A stretch of 64,000 nt of DNA, from the IMG/VR virus record IMGVR_UViG_3300045978_000284, positions 1 through 64,000 of that record. One strand, 5' to 3'. The translations under genes and the position numbers were made by a program. Within the stretch, counting starts at the first letter, position 1, and each line of letters opens with the position of its first letter. The notes beneath the pieces are model-generated. The model had not been told where the DNA came from. It ran no database searches and was given only the letters and a program-made list of their open reading frames with translations. Below, piece by piece: positions 4,143 to 47,719 of this stretch. Source of the DNA: a virus.

Positions 4143-4219
4143 GGTGGCTGTAGCTCAGCGGGAAGAGCATCGGTCTGTGAAGCCGACGGTCGCGGGTTCG
4201 AGCCCCGCCAGCCACCCCA
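4143..4219 (+). tRNA. tRNA-His (anticodon GTG)
   Basis: A complete cloverleaf: acceptor GTGGCTG (4144-4150) pairs with CAGCCAC (4209-4215). The D-arm is GCTC/GAGC, the anticodon loop CTGTGAA carries GTG, the variable loop has 5 bases, and the T-arm is GCGGG-TTCGAGC-CCCGC. The extra G at 4143 (G-1) faces C73 at 4216, the hallmark recognised by histidyl-tRNA synthetase. CCA is encoded at 4217-4219. It may supplement host tRNA or serve as a recombination site. Confidence 0.95.
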
Positions 4220-27221: not shown

Positions 27222-30200
27222 ATGATCGGGGACTGGATCAAGCGCATCACGGGCCGGCACGAGCCGACCGGACGGCCGGTGATCCAGATCGTTCCGAGCG
27301 GTCAGCCGCCCACTCCGCTCCCGGGCGCCGCGACGGGCTACATCCCTCGGACCGCGGTCCCGTCGGAAGGTGGTCCACTCGCGGTCGAGAAGGAGCAGGT
27401 TCGTCTCTTCGCCGAGCGTCGCGAAGAGCTGAAGCGGTTCGGGCGCTACGAGCTCGGGGTGACGGGCACGCCGGTCTATGGCGGTCAGATCCTGACCGAG
27501 CCGAACCCGGACATGGCGTTCCCGAAGAGCCTGGCCACGTTCGACAAGATGCGTCGGACCGATGGCCAGGTGCACGCGGCGCTCCTGATCATCATGCTGC
27601 CGATCCTCTCGCTCGACTGGGCCATCGAGCCCTACGCGGAAATCGACGAATCGACCAGCACGCCAAAGGAGGTCACGCCCCTCGATCGCCAGGCGGCGGA
27701 CTTCATCCGGAAGGATCTCCTGGAAGGCTTCCAGCCCTTCAAGCACGTGCTCCGCGAGGTGCTCGGGATGATCTGGGCCGGCTTCTGGATCCTCGAAAAG
27801 ATCTACGAGGTCCGGGAGGACGGCCTGGTGCATCTGCACAAGCTCGGCACGCGCCTGCCCCAGACGATCTTCCGGTGGGGCGTGCGGCGCAACGGCGAGC
27901 TGGAGTTCGCCGTCCAGCGCGGCGTCGATCCCTCGACGGGCGGGACGATCGAGCAGACGCTCCCGGCCGAGGACATTCTGATCTTCGTCAACAACCAGGA
28001 AGGGGCGGACTGGCAGGGCCAGTCGGTGCTGCGCTCGGCCTACAAGCACTTCGAGATGAAGGACTGGCTCTACCGGATCGGCGTGATCAACGTCGAGCGC
28101 GGCGGAGGGTTCCCGGTGCTCTCGCTCCCGGAGGGGATGAACGACCAGGACCTCCAGGCCGCCCGGGACGTGGGCGAATCGATCCACGTGCACGAGCGGG
28201 CCTACGTGCTGGAGCCCCACGGGTGGCGCTTCCGGCTGGAGGGGACGACCTCGCGCATCGGCGACGTCATGGCCCAGGTCGAGCACCACGACCGGATGAT
28301 CTCGGTGAACGTGCTCGCGCAGTTCCTGGCGGCGACCGGCGGCGAGCTGGCGGGCCGCGGGTCGACGGCCGAGTACATGGACATGTTCCTGATGGCCGAG
28401 GAGGTGGTCATCGCGAACATCGAAGAGGTGTTCAACTCCGGCCTCGTCCGCCAGCTGGTGGACTACAACTTCCGGGTCGAGCCCGGGCACTACCCGAAGC
28501 TCAAGGCGCAGAACGTCCGCGGGTTCAACGTGCGGCGCATGGGCATCGTGCTGCGCACCATGGTCGATGGCCGCCTGATCACCCCGGACGAGCCCCTCGA
28601 AGAGTTCCTGCGCGAGGCGATGGGCTTGCCGCGAGCCGATCTCGATACCCGGCGCGACCCGATGGCCCAGATGATGGCCGCCGGTGGCCAGGGAGGGGAC
28701 CTCGGGGGCCTCGGGGCTCTCCTGGGGCTGGGTGGCGGTCCAAAGAAGCCAGGCGGTCCGGGTGGGCCCCCGACGCCGGGTGCCCCCACGCAGTCGAAGC
28801 TGGGCAAGCCAGGGCCGGAGACGGGTGTGCCGACCCAGGCCGCCAAGGCTGATCCCGTGTCGCCGATCCCGGGCGAGAATCCACTGCTGCCCTCCGACAA
28901 CCCGAAATGGCAGCAGAAGGAGGCGCTGCTCGCGGAGCGTGCGGAGGACGACGAGTGCATCTGGCGCACGATCGGCGGCAACCCGGTCTGCATCAAGGCT
29001 GGGCATGGCGGACACCGTGAGGGCCAGCGACCCTATCGCCACTCCTCCGGGCAAACTCCCGTGTCGAGCTTCGCGAGCGACCAGCCAAAGGGCCGCGCAG
29101 GACAGGACGAACGGGAGAACCTGCGCTGGCTGACCAGGCCCAGCGACTATGACATCGGTCGCACGTCGGACCGCTTTACCGTCGAGCACGGTCCGTTGCG
29201 CGTGGATGGCGTCATTGGTGACCGGGGCGGCACGCGGACGGCGGACATCAGGGTGTCAAACATGGAAAAGGTCGCGCCGTTCCCGTCCGGCGCCGAGCTG
29301 CCAGATCAATCCATGCCGCCAGTGGCGGCGAGCACCGTCGATCCTGGGAGCATGAGGGCGCTCCTGCGCGAGGTGCAGGCCGAGCTGGTCAAGCGCGGCG
29401 TCTCCCAGGCGATCTTGCCGCAGCCGGATAAGTCCTGGCGCGTCCCGCGCAAGATCCTTGATCGCCTCGGGGCCACGAAGGTCGACATCCCATTCCGCAC
29501 CCCTTCGCCCAAGGAGAAAGCCATGCGCCGGGACCTGGGAATCCCGGCCCCGACAGACGCCGACCGGGGCTCGCTCGTCAAGACCGAGTCCATGAAGGCC
29601 CTCGCTGAGATCTCCGATGAGGACTTCGCGCTGGGCGAGCTGGGCGAGTTCGTCAGCTCGACGGAGCTGCGCATCCCGGAGTGGGAGACCGAGCTGGCGC
29701 GCTACGCGGCCGCAATCCCCGCCGCGGATCTCGCCCAGGACGGTGTGGTCGGAAAGCACCACGTCACCCTGAAGTACGGGCTGGCCACGTCGAACGCGGA
29801 GGACCTGCGTCGGCTCGCGGCATCCCTGCCGACCATGACGCTGCGCCTGGGGGCCACGATGGTCTTCCCCAAGCCCGAGGCGGACATCCTGGTGATGCGG
29901 GTGTTCGGCGAGGGCCTGGAGGAGGCGCATGAGCAGATCCAGCGGTACACGCCCTGCCAGGAGGACGAGCAGCCGTACCTGCCGCACGTGACCCTGGCGT
30001 ATCTCAAGCCAGGCGCCGGCGTTCGCTACGCAGGAGATCCGGCGCTCGCGGGTCGGGCGGCGATCGCCACGGAGCTGTGGTTCCGCCCCTCGACGACCTC
30101 GAAGCTCCCGGACCAGGCGCTCCCGCTGGGCGTCGAGGACATGCAGCTCGCCGGGATCGAGGAGGCCTGGGCCAAGCCGCTGATGATCTCGCGCCCGCTC

Positions 30201-30995
30201 CGCCCACTCGAGCGCGCGGTCAATCTCCACGAGATCGACCGGCGCTGCAAGCTGACGGCGACCCGCATGCTCCAGACGGTGCGCCCGATCGGCCGCCAGA
30301 TGGCCGAGGCGATGGTGAAGGCCTGCCGGGAGTGCGGCGAGGACAACATCCAGTCCCTCATGGACTACCGGGTGCCGCTGCAGGGCAAGATGGCCTCGGC
30401 GTGCAAGACCTACCTCGCGGACATGTTCGACTTCGGGCAGGCCCAGGTGCGCGAAGAGCTGGCCCGGCAGCACCGCCAAGCGCAGAACCCGGAGAGCGAT
30501 CTCCTGCTGGCGGAGCCGCCGCGGCCCATCGACAACGAGAAGCGCGCCCGGGACGTCATCAACCTGAAGGCCGACCTGCTCTCGCGGCGCTGGGCGGAGC
30601 GCCTCAAGGAATCCGCCATGAACGTGATGCTGGCGGCCGCGCGCAGCGGGATGCCCCCGGGCGAGGCCGCGCAGCGCATCCAGGAGGCCGCGGACGAGAT
30701 CACCGATCGCTCGTCGCGCCAGCTCGTGATGAACACGCTCGGGGACGCCTTCGGCCTCGGGCGCCAGGTGGAGGCCCACCGGCAGCGCGACTACATCGGC
30801 GAGGCCGAGTACTCCGCGATCCTCGACGAGAACACCTGTGACCCGTGCCGTCAGCTCGACGGACGCACGGGGCAGCTGGACGAGCCGGCGATGCAGGTGC
30901 CGAACCCGAACTGCGCCGGCGAGCGCTACGGCTCGAGCTGTAGGTGCGTTCTCGTTTTTAGATATCGTGGACCATCCGGGGGCAGTGGGTCATGA
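27222..30995 (+). CDS. portal protein (DUF935 type) fused to a Cys/His module, a 2H phosphoesterase and a MuF domain
   Basis: The 1257-residue protein has a Mu gp29/DUF935 portal core at about 60-480 (LTEPNPDMAFPKSL, then GGGFPVLSLPEG and LAGRGSTAEYMDMF). A Gly/Pro-rich linker follows, then a Cys/His module (C579, C590, H595, H598). A domain at about 600-780 shares LLRE…AILP and ILDRL with the protein at 39451. Next comes a two-histidine phosphoesterase (H847-V-T, H922-V-T) similar to 2'-5' ligase/Acb1 anti-CBASS enzymes. Finally there is a MuF-type region (about 1016-1250) with YSAILDENTCDPC. It would sit at the portal vertex. The 3' end overlaps an antisense gene by 70 bases. Confidence 0.8.
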   Translation: MIGDWIKRITGRHEPTGRPVIQIVPSGQPPTPLPGAATGYIPRTAVPSEGGPLAVEKEQVRLFAERREELKRFGRYELGVTGTPVYGGQILTEPNPDMAFPKSLATFDKMRRTDGQVHAALLIIMLPILSLDWAIEPYAEIDESTSTPKEVTPLDRQAADFIRKDLLEGFQPFKHVLREVLGMIWAGFWILEKIYEVREDGLVHLHKLGTRLPQTIFRWGVRRNGELEFAVQRGVDPSTGGTIEQTLPAEDILIFVNNQEGADWQGQSVLRSAYKHFEMKDWLYRIGVINVERGGGFPVLSLPEGMNDQDLQAARDVGESIHVHERAYVLEPHGWRFRLEGTTSRIGDVMAQVEHHDRMISVNVLAQFLAATGGELAGRGSTAEYMDMFLMAEEVVIANIEEVFNSGLVRQLVDYNFRVEPGHYPKLKAQNVRGFNVRRMGIVLRTMVDGRLITPDEPLEEFLREAMGLPRADLDTRRDPMAQMMAAGGQGGDLGGLGALLGLGGGPKKPGGPGGPPTPGAPTQSKLGKPGPETGVPTQAAKADPVSPIPGENPLLPSDNPKWQQKEALLAERAEDDECIWRTIGGNPVCIKAGHGGHREGQRPYRHSSGQTPVSSFASDQPKGRAGQDERENLRWLTRPSDYDIGRTSDRFTVEHGPLRVDGVIGDRGGTRTADIRVSNMEKVAPFPSGAELPDQSMPPVAASTVDPGSMRALLREVQAELVKRGVSQAILPQPDKSWRVPRKILDRLGATKVDIPFRTPSPKEKAMRRDLGIPAPTDADRGSLVKTESMKALAEISDEDFALGELGEFVSSTELRIPEWETELARYAAAIPAADLAQDGVVGKHHVTLKYGLATSNAEDLRRLAASLPTMTLRLGATMVFPKPEADILVMRVFGEGLEEAHEQIQRYTPCQEDEQPYLPHVTLAYLKPGAGVRYAGDPALAGRAAIATELWFRPSTTSKLPDQALPLGVEDMQLAGIEEAWAKPLMISRPLRPLERAVNLHEIDRRCKLTATRMLQTVRPIGRQMAEAMVKACRECGEDNIQSLMDYRVPLQGKMASACKTYLADMFDFGQAQVREELARQHRQAQNPESDLLLAEPPRPIDNEKRARDVINLKADLLSRRWAERLKESAMNVMLAAARSGMPPGEAAQRIQEAADEITDRSSRQLVMNTLGDAFGLGRQVEAHRQRDYIGEAEYSAILDENTCDPCRQLDGRTGQLDEPAMQVPNPNCAGERYGSSCRCVLVFRYRGPSGGSGS

Positions 30996-39080: not shown

Positions 39081-39454
39081 GGCCCAACTCCTACTGGCAC
39101 AGTACCGAGCGGACGACGGGGGCGTACACGGTGAAGGCCCTGAAGGACGAGGACGGGATCGTCCTGACGAGCCTCGATACCCTGACCCTCTCGGTGTGGG
39201 ATCTCAAATCGGGCGCGATCATCAACGGGCGCGACCGGCAGGACGTGCTCAACCAGAACGACGTGACGTTCAATGGGGACGGCTCTCTGCTCTGGCGCGT
39301 CCAGGCCGCCGACCGGCCGATCCTGGACGACACGCAGGACTGGGAGGACCACGTCGCCATGTTCGAGTTCACCTATGCGGGCGGGGGGCGAACCGGCCAC
39401 TGGGTGCTCCAGGACCGGATCGACAATCTCCAGAAGGTGCCGGCGACGCCGTGA
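39077..39454 (+). CDS. small virion-type protein (125 aa)
   Basis: ATGA-linked. Beta-rich (GAYTVKALKDEDGIVL, then LTLSVWDLKSGAII and GSLLWRVQAAD), similar in feel to phage proteins with Ig-like folds. Unknown function. Confidence 0.5.
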   Translation: MRPNSYWHSTERTTGAYTVKALKDEDGIVLTSLDTLTLSVWDLKSGAIINGRDRQDVLNQNDVTFNGDGSLLWRVQAADRPILDDTQDWEDHVAMFEFTYAGGGRTGHWVLQDRIDNLQKVPATP

Positions 39455-42400
39455 GCGCGAAGTGGGACGTGGTTCTGGCCGAGCGCCTGCTGGCGGACAA
39501 AGAGCGCTCGGGCATCGAGGCGTTCATGCGCGGCACCGGGCGAAAGCGCGGCGGCGGCGAACAGGGTGGCGGCGGTGGTGACGAGGACGACGGAGACTGC
39601 AAGTGGGTCACCATCCGCGGTAACCCCGTCTGCCTGACGCCGGGTCATGGTGGCCACCGGAAGGGCGAGTCCATCGCGAAGTCCCAGGCGGCCTACTCCG
39701 ATGTACCCACGGGGAAGGGGGGCCGCGTGCGCGCGGTGTCCCGGATCTGGAACCCGACCGCCGAGAACACCTGGCGGGGCTCCGGTGCCGTGACACCGAA
39801 GTGGCCCAAGGGCGTCGAGCCCGGAAGAGTGCTCGACCGCTTCCGCTTCAACACGACGTCGATGTCCGCTTCCGGCCACATCGAGGAGGACGAGAACCAA
39901 CGCAAGCGGGCCGTCATCCACGAGGTGGTCAACGACACGCCGAGCCTCCTGACGTCGCAGGAGCGGCGAAACCAGCCGACCGGATCCTACCCGTCGCGCG
40001 CCGGCGAATCCCGCACCCTGCTCCGCGAGCTGATGGTCAGCCTGCGCGACAAGGGGGTGCGGGAGGCCATCCTGCCCCCCAGGGTGGTCGGGGCGGGCGC
40101 CGAGCCGTGGATGGCGTACCAGTCCACGCGCGGGGACAAGCCGTACCCGCGGAGCTGGCCCGGAATGAGCGTGCAGTTCGGCCGCGCCGAGCCCAGGCCA
40201 GGAGTCGTGGCGGGTCCAGGCCTCGGCGATGCGACGGCGCGCCCGGTTCCGCCCCATCGCATCCTCGATCGCCTCAAGGCCAAGCCGGTCACGGACGCGG
40301 GCGGCAAGATCACGGGCTACCGGGTGAACGTCGAGGAGATGCAGTACCTCTGCGAGATGGCATGGCCCGAGGATCGCGTCCTGGCGGATCCGGAGCGGCG
40401 GCGCGTGGTGGCCGCCTTCGACTTCGACGGCACGCTGGCCCAGTACCAGGGGTGGGGCGACGGGACACCGGGCGATCCGATCCCGGGCATGCGCGAGGTC
40501 ATCGACCAGCTGCAGGCCGCCGGCGCCGAGGTCCTGATCTTCTCGACGCGGGATGCCGACCAGATCCGGGCCTGGCTCACGAAGCACGAGTGGCCGGCCC
40601 TGGAGGTGACGAACAAGAAGCACCCGCGGATCACGGTGTACATCGACGACCGGGCCCTCGAGTACGAGCCCGAGACGCTCGACACCCTGGCCGTCCGGGT
40701 CATGAACTTCCGCCCGTGGTGGCAGACGGTCGACCACCAGCTGGCGGACGAGGACGACGACTGCACCTGGATCACGATCGACGGCCGCCACATCTGCATC
40801 CAGCCCAAGCACGCCTGGCATGACCGGACGCCGCGCGTGAAAGTCAGCCGCGCGCCGCACTGGCGACGTGAGCCGATCGAGGGCAAGCGCATCAGCTGGT
40901 CCCAGCAGGGGAAGATGGGGGAGCGCCTGGCGATCGCGCATCTCAAGCGCCTTGGGTTCCGGGACGCGCGGCCGGCCACGAAGATCTCGAACTTTCCCGT
41001 CGACCTGGTGCACGGGGACACCCTGGTCGAGGTCAAGACGGGGCTCGCCAGCAACACGCAGAAGAGCCAGCACTGGCGGACCACGATCGGCGAGCCCGGC
41101 AAGGCGGAGCGGCGCTGGCTGCGCGAGCTGGACCGGGACAAGAAGCTCCGGTGGAACGCCGAGAAGATGCGCCAGATCCATCTCCGCAAGCAGGCGGTCG
41201 TGAAGGCGCTCTCGCGCGAGCTGGGCCGTCCGATCAAGACGGAGACCGTCGCGCTCATCCTCGACCCGGGCCGGCGCAAGGCCGACGTGTACCGCTTCGA
41301 GGGCTTCCCCAGGCGCGTGGGATGGCGCTCGCCCACGGCCCAGCAGGGCTACGTGACCACCTACGACTACAAGCTGAGCGAGGACCTGTGGGACGTACCG
41401 GCCCCGCCGCTGCGGCCGGACGTCTACGAACTCGCCGAGCCCGAGGCGGAGCCCGCTGATCCGGAGACGGTCGATGACGAGGCCGACGACGACGCGGACT
41501 GGCCGTCCTGGGTGCCGCTGGGCGTGCGCGCCGAGGTCGAGGGTGCGCTGTCGCGCTGGAGCCGCGACGTCGAGAAGGCGATCGCGAAGGAGGACAGCCG
41601 GTCGCTCGCCGAGGAGGACGACGACGAGTGCATCTGGCGCATGATCGGGGGCCACCCGGTCTGCATCCGCGCGAGCCACGCGGAGCACGGCCGCGGCGAG
41701 CGACCGGACCGTGGGGCCCCCCGGGAGACCCGGCGGTTCCGCTCCGAGACCACCCCACGCGCCCCGAAGCCCCCGGCGAAGGGCATCAACCCGGAGCCCT
41801 TGACCACCCGGGTGGCGAGCCCTCGGCTCTTCAGCCCGGTTGCCCGGGCGGTGCCGCTGGGCCATCGCTACGGGGAAAAGCCGTCCGGCGACCCGGAGGG
41901 CCACCTGAACTCGGTGTTCCGCGTGACGCTGGAGAACGGCAACGACGCGGTGTGGAAACCGGCCGCCGGCGAGCACAGCGCGTTCTCCGGCGCCGATCCC
42001 GCCAAGCTGAAAGGATTCACGCAGGACCTCCGGGCGTTCGGCCAGCCAGGCACCTACTGGAAGCGCGAGGTGGCGGCCTCCCGGATCGCCCGGGCGGTGG
42101 GCATGGAGGACCTGGTGCCGTCCACCGACCCGGCCTCGTTCGGCACCGAGCACGGGGCGCTTCAGACGTTCCAGCGCGGGGTGAGCCCCATGACCCTCGG
42201 GCGCGATCTCTACGGCAAGCGGCTCGAGGACGTCGAGCGCGCGGTGCTGTACGACGCGGTCATCGGGAACTTCGACCGCCACTTCGGCAACTGGCTGGTG
42301 GCCCCCACCGGCAAGCTGATCCTGATCGACCATGGCCACGCCTTCCCGCGCACCCAGGTCGTGAAGCACCCGGGGGACCTCCGGGAAGGTCTCCGGGCAG

Positions 42401-42594
42401 GCGGCGAAATGAACCGCGAGATCCCGGAGGCCGTGAAGGAGCCCTGGAAGAAGATCGAGAGCCAGCTCCCGACGCTCCTGCGGGGTCTTTCGTCGGCCAC
42501 CATCAAGACGACGCGGCAGCGGCTCGGCCTCGCCCTCAAGCCAGGCCAGACGTGGATCGGCCTGCGGCGCGACCTGGAGCGGCCGTTCAAGTAG
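39451..42594 (+). CDS. multi-effector protein: HAD phosphatase, PD-(D/E)XK nuclease and PI3K/HipA-like kinase, each behind a Cys/His module
   Basis: GTG start, 1047 residues. Module 1 (C50, C61, H66, H69) leads into a domain shared with the portal fusion (LLREL…AILPP), then a HAD-type domain with DFDGTL (324-329) and IFSTRDAD. Module 2 (C438, C449, H454, H457) leads into a restriction-fold nuclease with D518, E527 and K529 (FPVDLV, then VEVKTG). Module 3 (C727, C738, H743, H746) leads into a kinase-like domain with D942, H944 and N947 (DRHFGNW) and IDHG with D960. The layout resembles polyvalent or MuF-type effector proteins packaged with phage DNA. Its exact location and targets are inferred. 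Confidence 0.75.
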   Translation: MSAKWDVVLAERLLADKERSGIEAFMRGTGRKRGGGEQGGGGGDEDDGDCKWVTIRGNPVCLTPGHGGHRKGESIAKSQAAYSDVPTGKGGRVRAVSRIWNPTAENTWRGSGAVTPKWPKGVEPGRVLDRFRFNTTSMSASGHIEEDENQRKRAVIHEVVNDTPSLLTSQERRNQPTGSYPSRAGESRTLLRELMVSLRDKGVREAILPPRVVGAGAEPWMAYQSTRGDKPYPRSWPGMSVQFGRAEPRPGVVAGPGLGDATARPVPPHRILDRLKAKPVTDAGGKITGYRVNVEEMQYLCEMAWPEDRVLADPERRRVVAAFDFDGTLAQYQGWGDGTPGDPIPGMREVIDQLQAAGAEVLIFSTRDADQIRAWLTKHEWPALEVTNKKHPRITVYIDDRALEYEPETLDTLAVRVMNFRPWWQTVDHQLADEDDDCTWITIDGRHICIQPKHAWHDRTPRVKVSRAPHWRREPIEGKRISWSQQGKMGERLAIAHLKRLGFRDARPATKISNFPVDLVHGDTLVEVKTGLASNTQKSQHWRTTIGEPGKAERRWLRELDRDKKLRWNAEKMRQIHLRKQAVVKALSRELGRPIKTETVALILDPGRRKADVYRFEGFPRRVGWRSPTAQQGYVTTYDYKLSEDLWDVPAPPLRPDVYELAEPEAEPADPETVDDEADDDADWPSWVPLGVRAEVEGALSRWSRDVEKAIAKEDSRSLAEEDDDECIWRMIGGHPVCIRASHAEHGRGERPDRGAPRETRRFRSETTPRAPKPPAKGINPEPLTTRVASPRLFSPVARAVPLGHRYGEKPSGDPEGHLNSVFRVTLENGNDAVWKPAAGEHSAFSGADPAKLKGFTQDLRAFGQPGTYWKREVAASRIARAVGMEDLVPSTDPASFGTEHGALQTFQRGVSPMTLGRDLYGKRLEDVERAVLYDAVIGNFDRHFGNWLVAPTGKLILIDHGHAFPRTQVVKHPGDLREGLRAGGEMNREIPEAVKEPWKKIESQLPTLLRGLSSATIKTTRQRLGLALKPGQTWIGLRRDLERPFK

Positions 42595-44042: not shown

Positions 44043-45806
44043 ATGCTGAGCGACCGGATCGGTCGCGTGATCGAGGGGTACGAGCTCTCAACGTCGCTCT
44101 TCGGGGAGCCGAAGTCGAAGCTCCTGCTCTTCCCGCGCGGCCAGTTCGATCATCCGAAGTACGGCAAGATGACCTTCGACGACGAGTTCTTCGACGAGGT
44201 CGTCGCCAACTACAAGAACAAGGTGCTCGGCCGGACCGAGCCCTACATCGACTTCGACCACCAGAAGGGCCGCGCGGCCGCGTGGATCCGCGAGCTGTCG
44301 GTCGATCCCGATGGCCTGTGGGCCTCGCGCGTCGACTGGACGCCCGCCGGCGAGACGGCGGTGCGCTCGGGCGAGTACCGCTACGTGTCGCCCTGGTGGG
44401 GCTCCGTGTCCGACGCGGCGAACGGCGAGACCTACGATCGCGTGCTGCGCGGGGCCGGGCTCACGAACGTCCCCTATCTGAAGCAGCTTCCGCCGGTGGC
44501 CCAGGACGCGGTCCTTGAGGAGAGCGAGCCGCTGGTCGAGCTGATGCTCAGCGAGTTCCTGCTCGCGGGCAACCCGTACCGGGCGGCCGATGGGACGTTC
44601 ACCGACGCGGCCCACGACGTCGGCGGTGGCGGTGTCGGTGGTGGTGGCGGCAAGGGCGGCGGCGCCGGGCCCGCTGCGGTCAAGGTCTCGCGCAGCGCGG
44701 CCCGGGGCGCCCAGATCGGCTGGGACCTCGGGCGCCTCTTCGGCTCCACGAAGCTCTCCGGGGCAGCGGCGACCGGCATCGGGATCGCGGCCGGTCTCGG
44801 GTCGCTGGCCGCGGCGAATCCGGATGCGGCCATGAAAGTGGCGGGCCTGGCGAAGGCCCTCGGCTCGCGTGTCATGCGTCACGGGCCGGCGATCGCTGGA
44901 ACCGTCCTGGCCGGCGCGGGCATGCTCGGGCTGTCGCGCGTCGGCCGGCCCCCCGCGCCAGGGCGACAGTCACCGGCCGAGCTTGAAGTCGGCGCGGCCA
45001 TGGCGCGGCAGGGCTTGCTCCCGCCCGCGGCTCCCGGTGGCGCTCCCGCGAAGCCAGCGCTGGGAGCTCTGGCGACCGGGAAAATCCAGAACGCCAAGGC
45101 CGTGCTGCGCGAGGTGCTCTCGCGCTATCGCTCGATGCCCCTCAAGCCGGAGGCGCCCGCCGCTCCAGCGGCGCCCGCCGAACCGCCCTACACGTCCTGG
45201 GTCGAGCGGCAGATCGCGTCGGGCGAGAAGGGCTCGCGAGGCACGCGGCGGCTGCGCAAGGGCGGCGGCGTCGGCTACCAGGGCGGCCGCAACGTGCGCC
45301 TCGACGACGTGCTCGCCACGTTCCGGGAGTTCCGCCTGGCGGATGAGGAGGACGACGCCCTGGAGGCCATCGACGTCGATGCCATCCCGGACGATCTCGC
45401 CGAGGCGATCCTGAAGATGCTGCAGGCCTACGTGGAGCGCGAAGAGAAGGCGCTCTCCGAGCGGCTGCATCGCACGCTGACCGGCCAGGCGCTCGCCGAT
45501 GGCGACCCGGAGGACGAGGACGAGGAAGAGGACGAGGACGAGGACGAGGACGAGGATCTCGAGTCCCTGCCGAACCGGGTGCGCGCAGCCTGGAACGCGA
45601 TGTACCCGATGGGCATCTCCATGAACGGCGCGCGCCATCCCTACCTCACCAAGATCTTCGAGGAGCACGTGATCGCGGAGGACGGCGAGCGGCCGAACAC
45701 GTGGTGGCAGATTCCGTGGCGAGAGGTCGGCCCACAGATCGTCTTCGACATGGCGGCCCGCATCCCGGTCCACCAGGTGTGGCTGCCTGCGGGAGCGACC
45801 GCATGA
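44043..45806 (+). CDS. Mu I-like prohead protease with extended C-terminus (587 aa)
   Basis: Residues about 25-150 carry the phage Mu I/protease pattern: FDHPKYGKMTFDDEFF, DFDHQKGRAAAWIREL, then WTPAGETAVRSGEYRYVSPW. In that family the N-terminal part is the maturation protease and an internal start makes the scaffold. After residue 180 comes an NPYRAADGTFTDAAHDVGG module, Gly/Ala-rich hydrophobic segments, an acidic run of Asp/Glu and a C-terminal domain (WWQIPWREVGPQIVF). The long extension is unusual; it may act as an internal virion protein. Confidence 0.7.
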   Translation: MLSDRIGRVIEGYELSTSLFGEPKSKLLLFPRGQFDHPKYGKMTFDDEFFDEVVANYKNKVLGRTEPYIDFDHQKGRAAAWIRELSVDPDGLWASRVDWTPAGETAVRSGEYRYVSPWWGSVSDAANGETYDRVLRGAGLTNVPYLKQLPPVAQDAVLEESEPLVELMLSEFLLAGNPYRAADGTFTDAAHDVGGGGVGGGGGKGGGAGPAAVKVSRSAARGAQIGWDLGRLFGSTKLSGAAATGIGIAAGLGSLAAANPDAAMKVAGLAKALGSRVMRHGPAIAGTVLAGAGMLGLSRVGRPPAPGRQSPAELEVGAAMARQGLLPPAAPGGAPAKPALGALATGKIQNAKAVLREVLSRYRSMPLKPEAPAAPAAPAEPPYTSWVERQIASGEKGSRGTRRLRKGGGVGYQGGRNVRLDDVLATFREFRLADEEDDALEAIDVDAIPDDLAEAILKMLQAYVEREEKALSERLHRTLTGQALADGDPEDEDEEEDEDEDEDEDLESLPNRVRAAWNAMYPMGISMNGARHPYLTKIFEEHVIAEDGERPNTWWQIPWREVGPQIVFDMAARIPVHQVWLPAGATA

Positions 45807-47719
45807 GCCTCCGGACGACCCTCGCCGAGCACACCCTGGCCAACCCCTACCGGGACGAGGGCGGTCGGTTCACGACAGAGTCACAAGACACGGGTGGACG
45901 CACTGGGGGCGCGGCGAAAGGCGAGGGGCGCCTCGCCAAGACCGCCAAGCGCGTCGCGAAGGCGGCGGGGGCAGCACTGGATCTCCCGGAGGCCGAAACC
46001 CGGACGATCAGCGCCGATAGAGCGGCGGTGGGGAAGGCGATCAAGAGAGGCATCGGGCACGGTGTGGTGACCGGCCTGGTGCTCGGTCGGCGCGCCGGGC
46101 TCGTAACTGGAGCTGCGGAGGCCGTGACGCAGCTCTCCAAAGCGCCGAAGCTCCGGCGCACCGTCGACCGCGCCCTCCGCACAGTCAGTCGGGGCGCCAT
46201 CAACCTGGGGCCCAAGGGTGTCGGCCAGCTGATCAATGGCCTGGTCCTCACGGGAAGCCTCGCGTACTCGGCCTACCAGATCTACAAGGGGCTGCAGTCG
46301 CTGCGGCCCCCCGGGCCGAGTCGTCAGCTGGCCGAACCCGATGTGGCCGATCGGGAGTCGTTCGAGGCTGTGCCGGAGGTGATCTGGAAGGCCCTCCTGT
46401 CGGCCCTCAAGGACTACACCAAGCATGGCGATGGCGATCGCCTGCAGCGGGACCTGGCCGCCATCGCGCCGGCCCAGTCCGAGCTATCGGAGACCCTGCA
46501 GGAGTACGCGCTGGCGAACCCGTACCGAGATCGAGAGGGCAAGTTCACCACCGAGGCCGGCGACACGGGCGGCGGCGGGCGCGGTGCAAAGACCGAGAGG
46601 CCGCGCGCGCGCAAGCGCGGCCTGGGCGGTGAATCGGTATCCGAAAGCCTGAAGGTCGGTGCCGCCACTGGCGCGACGATGGCCGTCGGCAGCGCGTTCG
46701 CCATGCCGCCGTTGCATGCGGTTGGGGCCGGCGGCCTCTCGGGGGTCGGGGCGGCGGCCTGGAATATCGGGAAGAGCCCGAAAGGCCGCGCCGCCGTCGC
46801 CAAGACCGTGCGCACGCTGAGCAACGGTGCCATCAAGATCGGCCCCAAGGCCGTGGGCCGCATCCTGAAAGGCGTTAGCGTGGCGGCCACTCTCGGGGGC
46901 AGCGCCGTGGCCATGCACGCGCTCTACAAGGCGATGGGTGGCGGAGGGGATCTCCTCGGAACCTTCCGCGACGAGCTGGCCAAGCCGGGAGGGCCCCGGG
47001 GCGGCCCGGCCCCGTTCTCCCCCTACGGTGGGAACGTGGTGAAAGAGCCCACCTATACGGGAGGAGGTCGTCCCCCCGATCCACCCGATCCGACCATTCG
47101 CCGACCGGGCGACACGGCGGCGGTCGAGTACCGGGGCAAGACGTTCTATGGGAAGACCGAGGACGACGCCATGAACAAGCTCAGGCGAGCCCAGCTCCCC
47201 GAGCAGGGCGCATTCGTCGGAGACACGTCGACCATCTTCCGCGGAACCTCCGGGAAGCCACTCGCCCCCGGCCTCGGCATCGTCGGCTACCCGAAGACCA
47301 GGGAGGAAGCCGCGGCGCGCACGCAGGCATTCCGGAGCACGGTGTATGGAGGCCAGAAGTTCACATCCAAGTCGAAGCCGATCCCGACGCTCGAGCCGCC
47401 CAAGGCGCGGTTGGGTGGCCTCCTGGGTCCGCCGCGCGTGGACACGCTCGAAGACCTGCTGAAGCGCCCCGGCTTCAAGCTGGCCGAGCCGGACGCGCCG
47501 GACGATCTGCCCGAACCGCTCCTGAAGGCCATGGTGTCGGCCCTCCAGGACTACGCGAAGCACGAGGACGCCGACCGTCTCCGGCGGGATCTCGCGGCGA
47601 TCCAGGCGCGCGTGGACGCGGCCGCGGACCAGACGGAACCCGCACTGTCAGAACCTTCCATCGGCGAGGTCCTGGGCCAGCAGGCCCGGAGAAGCCTGCT
47701 CGCCGCGATCGCCCACTGA
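45803..47719 (+). CDS. internally duplicated NPYR-module protein (638 aa)
   Basis: ATGA-linked to the protease gene. Two tandem copies of one module (starting near residues 13 and 235) share NPYRDxxGxFTTExxDTGG, then a Gly/Ala-rich segment, then GAIxxGPKxVGxxhxG before a hydrophobic stretch (SLAYSAYQIYKGL; SAVAMHALYKAM). Each ends in LxSALxDYxKHxDxDRLxRDLAAI. The protease gene carries a third version. The hydrophobic, glycine-rich parts could interact with membrane during DNA entry. No enzyme motif is seen. Confidence 0.55.
   Translation: MSLRTTLAEHTLANPYRDEGGRFTTESQDTGGRTGGAAKGEGRLAKTAKRVAKAAGAALDLPEAETRTISADRAAVGKAIKRGIGHGVVTGLVLGRRAGLVTGAAEAVTQLSKAPKLRRTVDRALRTVSRGAINLGPKGVGQLINGLVLTGSLAYSAYQIYKGLQSLRPPGPSRQLAEPDVADRESFEAVPEVIWKALLSALKDYTKHGDGDRLQRDLAAIAPAQSELSETLQEYALANPYRDREGKFTTEAGDTGGGGRGAKTERPRARKRGLGGESVSESLKVGAATGATMAVGSAFAMPPLHAVGAGGLSGVGAAAWNIGKSPKGRAAVAKTVRTLSNGAIKIGPKAVGRILKGVSVAATLGGSAVAMHALYKAMGGGGDLLGTFRDELAKPGGPRGGPAPFSPYGGNVVKEPTYTGGGRPPDPPDPTIRRPGDTAAVEYRGKTFYGKTEDDAMNKLRRAQLPEQGAFVGDTSTIFRGTSGKPLAPGLGIVGYPKTREEAAARTQAFRSTVYGGQKFTSKSKPIPTLEPPKARLGGLLGPPRVDTLEDLLKRPGFKLAEPDAPDDLPEPLLKAMVSALQDYAKHEDADRLRRDLAAIQARVDAAADQTEPALSEPSIGEVLGQQARRSLLAAIAH

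Follow-up and report, generated by a model that had tools for sequence, protein, structure and literature searches.

Repeated headers before three enzyme-like domains of a phage protein suggest a previously undescribed label for cargo loaded into phage heads

Header copies in the window phage

The window analysed here is the first 64 kb of the 108,431-base virus record IMGVR_UViG_3300045978_000284 from IMG/VR. Its open reading frame (ORF) 39451-42594 has a GTG start codon that shares the bases GTGA with the upstream gene's stop. In the encoded protein of 1047 amino acids (aa), three different enzyme-like domains each stand behind a copy of a short Cys/His header. A search with the pattern C-x-W-x2-(I/V)-x-G-x2-(V/I)-C-x-x3-H-x2-H gave four matches in the window versus none in 100 dinucleotide shuffles. 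Three of them confirm the headers that a first-pass annotation, made from the sequence alone, had listed at residues 50, 438 and 727 (positions 39598, 40762 and 41629). The fourth, absent from that list, starts at residue 579 (position 28956) of the portal-MuF fusion ORF 27222-30995, before a putative 2H phosphoesterase. No fifth header was found in the whole 108,431-base record, including the 44 kb beyond the window, and all four copies sit in two head-module proteins.

39451..42594, + strand: three-effector protein of 1047 aa whose GTG start overlaps the preceding stop codon
39598..39657, + strand: header 1, CKWVTIRGNPVCLTPGHGGH; pattern match, 28.5 bits with the tag hidden Markov model (HMM), this copy being itself among that model's training rows
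40762..40821, + strand: header 2, CTWITIDGRHICIQPKHAWH; pattern match, 13.6 bits with an HMM built from Cys-less tags only
41629..41688, + strand: header 3, CIWRMIGGHPVCIRASHAEH; pattern match
28956..29015, + strand: header 4, CIWRTIGGNPVCIKAGHGGH, inside the portal-MuF protein; pattern match

The two Cys and two His are kept in all four window headers. Each pair of headers has 9-16 identical residues, 2-6 of which are written with different codons, and DNA identity over the whole header is only ~70%. The possibility that the header is a repeat at the DNA level was rejected because identical residues use different codons in different copies. LA(E/D) with an acidic run lies within 12 residues before three of the four headers, a feature spotted post hoc.

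Enzyme domains of ORF 39451-42594

The three parts of the protein behind the headers carry the following domains.

39805..40077, + strand: unknown domain, also in the portal insert; 30% identity over ~90 residues, pairwise E 7e-7
40363..40758, + strand: HAD phosphatase-like domain (DFDGTL, FSTR, IDDR); PHROG 1238 E 5e-12, relative in L096 E 2e-21, Pfam HAD below cut-off
40888..41430, + strand: PD-(D/E)XK nuclease-like domain (GE491, D518, E527-V-K529); relative in L020 E 3e-40, and motifs
41764..42594, + strand: PI3/PI4-kinase-like domain (GNFDRHFGNW, IDHG); PF00454 above cut-off, 12-member alignment, best fold match PI4K-II alpha

The unknown domain, described in the first-pass annotation as shared, is indeed common to ORF 39451 and the insert of the portal protein. 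The identity of the first third as a putative HAD phosphatase is supported by homology, since DFDGTL and IDDR supply the DxD nucleophile motif and acidic motif IV of these enzymes and both PHROG 1238 and the L096 protein are related to it, while Pfam HAD models score the domain only at E 0.03, below cut-off.

The middle third was annotated as a PD-(D/E)XK nuclease, a candidate identity for which the motifs plus one relative speak. The motif order E...D-x(8)-E-x-K is found as E491, D518, E527 and K529, the last three lying exactly where they had been placed, and all four are kept in the 42%-identical relative of L020/L093. A weak two-sequence AlphaFold model (pLDDT 60) was obtained, with which a fold search ranked BglII first at an E of only 0.19, and no relatives of this domain were found in the phage collection.

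The kinase identity of the C-terminal third, with a predicted PI4K-II fold, is well supported. PF00454 matches above cut-off (E 2e-9), and the D-R-H-x-x-N and I-D-H/N-G motifs of PI3/PI4-kinases occur together with a kinase fold. The DRHFGNW and IDHG motifs read in the first pass are present, D-R-H-x-G-N-W and the following D-x-G being kept in 12 relatives with F/G variation inside the DRH-x-GNW loop. The AlphaFold model built from 12 sequences has PI4K-II alpha as best solved match (Foldseek E 3e-7, TM only 0.47), so that the original label of a PI3K/HipA-like kinase is better worded as PI4K-II-like. Myxococcus phage Mx1 provided the single kinase relative in the phage collection, and tblastn with the whole 1047-aa protein retrieved relatives of the HAD part only.

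A wider tag without cysteine

The Cys-less search pattern W(I/V)TI-x-G-x-H(I/V) matched 64 stretches in viral contigs, representing about 60 viral loci (given here by L numbers). Loci L004, L006 and L007 are pieces of one 27-kb contig with the window's own sequence and are not independent. Most Cys-less matches lie in long reading frames, with an acidic run before and a Gly- or Lys-rich linker after. W, T, I, G and H in this set are imposed by the pattern, while the positions free of it are informative, namely Gly at -2 in 35/65 and Asp or Glu at +12 in 43/65 tags.

An HMM search with the header module had been suggested in the first-pass annotation. The HMM built from the Cys-less tags alone recovers window header 2 (13.6 bits) as well as L001 and L085, and finds further, pattern-breaking tags in L020, L035, L041 and L065, with no match of at least 8 bits in reversed or shuffled ORFs; the window form itself proved to be rare. 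Among the viral contigs the complete Cys/His form occurs only in the window phage, a near variant in L001 having HSH for HxxH, and the Cys-only form C-D-W-K-T-I-N-G-T-H-V-C-I in L085/L086 is a direct bridge between the Cys/His and the Cys-less tags. By sequence comparison, the Cys/His header is a rare variant of a wider tag, WVTINGxHVLI. As Cys is missing from the widespread form, the reading of the header as purely a metal motif was rejected.

A scan of 396 bacterial genomes, all from one phylum, with the Cys-less pattern found nothing, and short-peptide tblastn of the tag against phages returned nothing convincing. Three matches of the Cys pattern in genome contigs, all in very short frames, were judged to be chance, as were several of its matches in viral contigs.

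Two AlphaFold models predict the tag as a beta-hairpin standing by itself, with a low-confidence linker between it and the enzyme. It thus looks like a separable module, and together with its recurrence before different enzymes this bears out the earlier notion of a header that is not part of one large fold. Similarity among tags is higher inside one phage than across phages (0.51 vs 0.37, 0/5000 permutations).

Position and partners of the tags

Tags are found near N-termini, internally and at extreme C-termini, with up to five per phage, as in L035, where five are spread over four ORFs. In L073 and L079, WVTINGNHVLI-xx forms the very end of an ORF, and the ORF that follows directly has a terminase-like GGYGSGKT motif. 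The 50,752-base contig of L041 has a portal-like ORF, read from the sequence by eye, followed by four consecutive small N-terminally tagged ORFs that differ downstream of the tag. An identical tag match also lies close to each end of this contig.

The segments upstream of tags (n=29) include several portals of different Pfam families, or MuF, and those downstream (n=48) include ADP-ribosyltransferases (ARTs), zeta toxin, topoisomerase I, YkuD, 2H, two kinase types and a head protease. Around 30 N-terminally tagged ORFs, 18 of the 25 top PHROGs belong to head and packaging by manual count, against 3/25 around chance matches, a small control that counts families and not members.

The same cargo behind different headers

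Relatives of the window nuclease-like domain (L020/L093) and of the window kinase (L065/L098) occur behind Cys-less tags. The chain of L020/L093 comprises a His-phosphatase, a tag, an ART-like domain (by eye), 2H, another tag and the nuclease-like relative (E 3e-40), and that of L098 a GRW-type header, an ART-like domain (by eye), tags, zeta toxin, a further tag and the kinase relative.

A profile of the kinase that included no tag matched 22 loci, counting the window's own sequence. The kinase is fused to MuF in L099 and L100, to minor capsid protein 2 in L106 and, behind NPNHLPAGSPEGGQFTSG, to a portal plus 2H in L101. In L096 (3244-6612), 2H, HAD and kinase are combined in one protein behind GGQFA-type headers. 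This is the same trio as in the window phage, suggesting that the three work together.

Two of these kinase loci have unusual architectures. In L101 (1675-6723), a segment resembling a Hint domain or intein (PF13403 at E 4e-4, which is below cut-off) interrupts the portal gene, to which 2H, a GGQF header and the kinase are fused. In L108 (1351-6717), a Mu-portal-like protein has many TSHGG / GHGxxH repeats ahead of the kinase domain.

A second header type, with the consensus NPYR(D/A)..G(R/K/T)FT, precedes hydrophobic glycine-rich segments in the window phage.

44571..44603, + strand: second header type in the protease, NPYRAADGTFT; sequence match
45842..45874, + strand: second header type, first copy in the ORF after the protease, NPYRDEGGRFT; sequence match
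46517..46549, + strand: second header type, second copy in the ORF after the protease, NPYRDREGKFT; sequence match

The contig of L101 has this type (NPYRD..GRFT) in four ORFs. At least two header families exist, since kinase, 2H and HAD cargo also stands behind GRF/GGQF-type headers without the WVTI tag.

The portal-MuF fusion and neighbouring head genes

ORF 39451 is placed between the portal-MuF gene, which harbours header 4, and the genes for the head protease and major head protein. The gene of the Mu I-like protease lies 1.4 kb downstream of the three-effector ORF.

27222..30995, + strand: portal-[header]-2H phosphoesterase-MuF fusion, 1257 aa; Pfam/PHROG matches
27537..28505, + strand: Mu-type portal domain; PF06074 E 8e-33
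29139..29420, + strand: copy of the unknown domain common to ORF 39451; pairwise comparison
29760..30017, + strand: putative 2H phosphoesterase with two HVT motifs, LigT/Acb1-like; PF13563 E 6e-7, relatives in L085 and L101
30648..30953, + strand: MuF domain; PF04233 E 2e-8
44043..45806, + strand: Mu I-like head maturation protease; PF10123 E 1e-17, PHROG 328

A recurrent unit, (R/K/Q)LA(E/D)...KA...AL.DY.KH.D..RL.RDLAAI, is clear twice in ORF 45803-47719 (at about residues 176 and 560), and a looser form of it begins at about residue 432 of the protease ORF 44043-45806. The window phage also encodes a tRNA-His with anticodon GTG at 4144-4219.

A possible role in head loading

The header is repeated, is predicted to form a hairpin, recurs before unrelated enzymes and in head-module genes of many phages, and has enzymes in common with other headers. 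These features suggest a previously undescribed label for cargo loaded into phage heads. A docking or loading tag working by analogy to the T4 capsid targeting sequence is the explanation we favour, tentatively and somewhat short of an even call, because the tag is portable, occurs at any chain position, stands in a head-module context and is alike within a phage; tags at extreme C-termini likewise fit docking. In this mechanism, WVTI, a turn and xHVLI would make up a short autonomous beta-hairpin, which would bind a head or scaffold component during assembly and so mark the protein for the head interior. Cargo behind the tag would travel inside the virion and enter the host along with the DNA. 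The window phage would use the Cys/His version, probably stabilised by zinc, and would have joined three cassettes of tag plus enzyme in a single protein, namely HAD phosphatase, PD-(D/E)XK-type nuclease and PI4K-like kinase, with a fourth cassette (2H phosphoesterase) placed in the portal-MuF protein. Plausible tasks of the enzymes early in infection would be to counteract defence signals of the host or to modify its nucleic acids and proteins.

Several observations weigh against such a role. One of the four copies is in the portal-MuF protein, which is already a head part, so that a targeting tag there would be redundant. The same tag accompanies unrelated portal families, so that no one conserved partner among the phage proteins suggests itself. 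Tag similarity within a phage could stem from duplication, and most kinase relatives do without the WVTI tag; in some of them its place is taken by fusion to MuF or a portal, or by a header of the GRF/GGQF type.

The main rival, rather unlikely in our estimate, is that the header is a processing joint, with cleavage next to it by the head maturation protease, or by some other peptidase, freeing the individual effectors in the prohead or after delivery. The nearby Mu I-like protease is in keeping with it, as are the LA(E/D) and acidic run before three headers, reminiscent of the L-x-E sites of T4-type proteases, the cutting of the T4 targeting peptides as well (PMC9026906), and the processing that polyvalent proteins are thought to undergo (PMC5512222). 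However, cutting would release nothing where tags sit at the N-terminus of stand-alone small ORFs or at extreme C-termini, the LA(E/D) run is by eye not general in other phages, and conservation lies in a predicted hairpin rather than in an extended site. The predicted independent hairpin, with four conserved Cys/His in the window copies suggesting stability, would suit a structural element without targeting role, a hairpin or zinc-knuckle cap aiding folding or refolding after tail passage. This is unlikely, for the same enzymes occur untagged when fused to MuF or portal, the cargo folds are unrelated, and C-terminal positions and the head-module bias would be left unexplained.

Gene position is the only link of ORF 39451 itself to the head, and the protein might instead act in the producing cell during late expression, neither packaged nor injected; such a role seems improbable given that the same cargo families and the tag are fused to portal and MuF, which are virion components. 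Finally, copies are alike within a phage and the cargo is visibly shuffled, as would be expected if the repeats were relics of DNA recombination between cassettes with the conserved peptide as a by-product. The codon differences and low DNA identity between window headers, together with conservation of the motif as protein across very distant phages, make this explanation hardly credible.

Returning to the loading tag, a broader and more doubtful proposal is that tailed phages with unrelated portals share a hitherto undescribed 'cargo code', in which short headers (the WVTINGxHVLI hairpin, its Cys/His variant and the NP..GRF/GGQF types) may mark any protein for head loading and delivery, with effector genes as interchangeable header-plus-enzyme cassettes, separate or strung together. 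Head-packaged phage effectors are usually recognised only if fused to portal or MuF. With a tag predicting loaded proteins, a pattern search would be enough to find injected effectors, many uncharacterised phage ORFs would become testable anti-defence candidates, and the tag could be put to general use for loading phage heads. A further question becomes testable, namely which recognition partner for the same twelve residues is common to phages whose portals are unrelated.

Comparison with known systems

In the literature searched, with most subscription journals outside its scope, no description of the header or tag was found, in agreement with the first-pass view of an undescribed joint or tag. 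That 2H, ART and further enzymes occur fused to portal, MuF and head protease, and are likely to be injected, is already published (PMC5512222, PMC9503650).

The polyvalent proteins of Iyer et al. (2017, PMC5512222) resemble the window protein in joining several unrelated enzyme domains in one phage polypeptide, in the fusion of 2H and other domains to MuF or portal, and in virion-gene context with predicted injection. ORF 39451, with HAD, PD-(D/E)XK-like and PI4K-like domains, combines domains of at least two disparate predicted activities in one polypeptide and lies among virion and packaging genes, which bears out the likeness to polyvalent and head-fused effectors drawn earlier. It differs in that no repeated header between domains was found in the parts consulted, the kinase type described there is not PI4K-like, and no zincin peptidase was found in the window protein. 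The MuF polymorphic toxins (Jamet et al. 2017, PMC5576092) likewise have effector domains attached to a head component. In them MuF is N-terminal to a C-terminal toxin, whereas ORF 39451 has no MuF and the effector of ORF 27222 precedes a C-terminal MuF.

The T4 internal proteins IPI-IPIII share N-terminal capsid targeting sequences of 10-19 residues, and T4 Alt has propeptides at both ends (PMC9026906). Here too a short peptide is common to otherwise unrelated, putative head cargo of one phage, and tags likewise occur at either terminus. Tags are alike within phages and terminal in L041, L073 and L079, and mostly internal in the window. The T4 peptides are terminal and cut off, whereas for the present tag a hairpin is predicted and many copies are internal and repeated, with no sequence likeness seen between the two.

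Among the enzymes, the kinase shares the DRH..N and I-D-H/N-G motifs and its best fold matches with the PI4K-II / SCO1664-MSMEG_1954 / CtkA group, from which it differs as a phage head-linked fusion. The putative 2H enzyme has the two HVT motifs of anti-CBASS Acb1 and LigT phosphoesterases, with a Pfam Acb1 match that is weak in the portal insert and above cut-off in L085; unlike them, it is inserted between portal and MuF. In our rating, the new element is the header, set on an otherwise known kind of polyvalent head effector.

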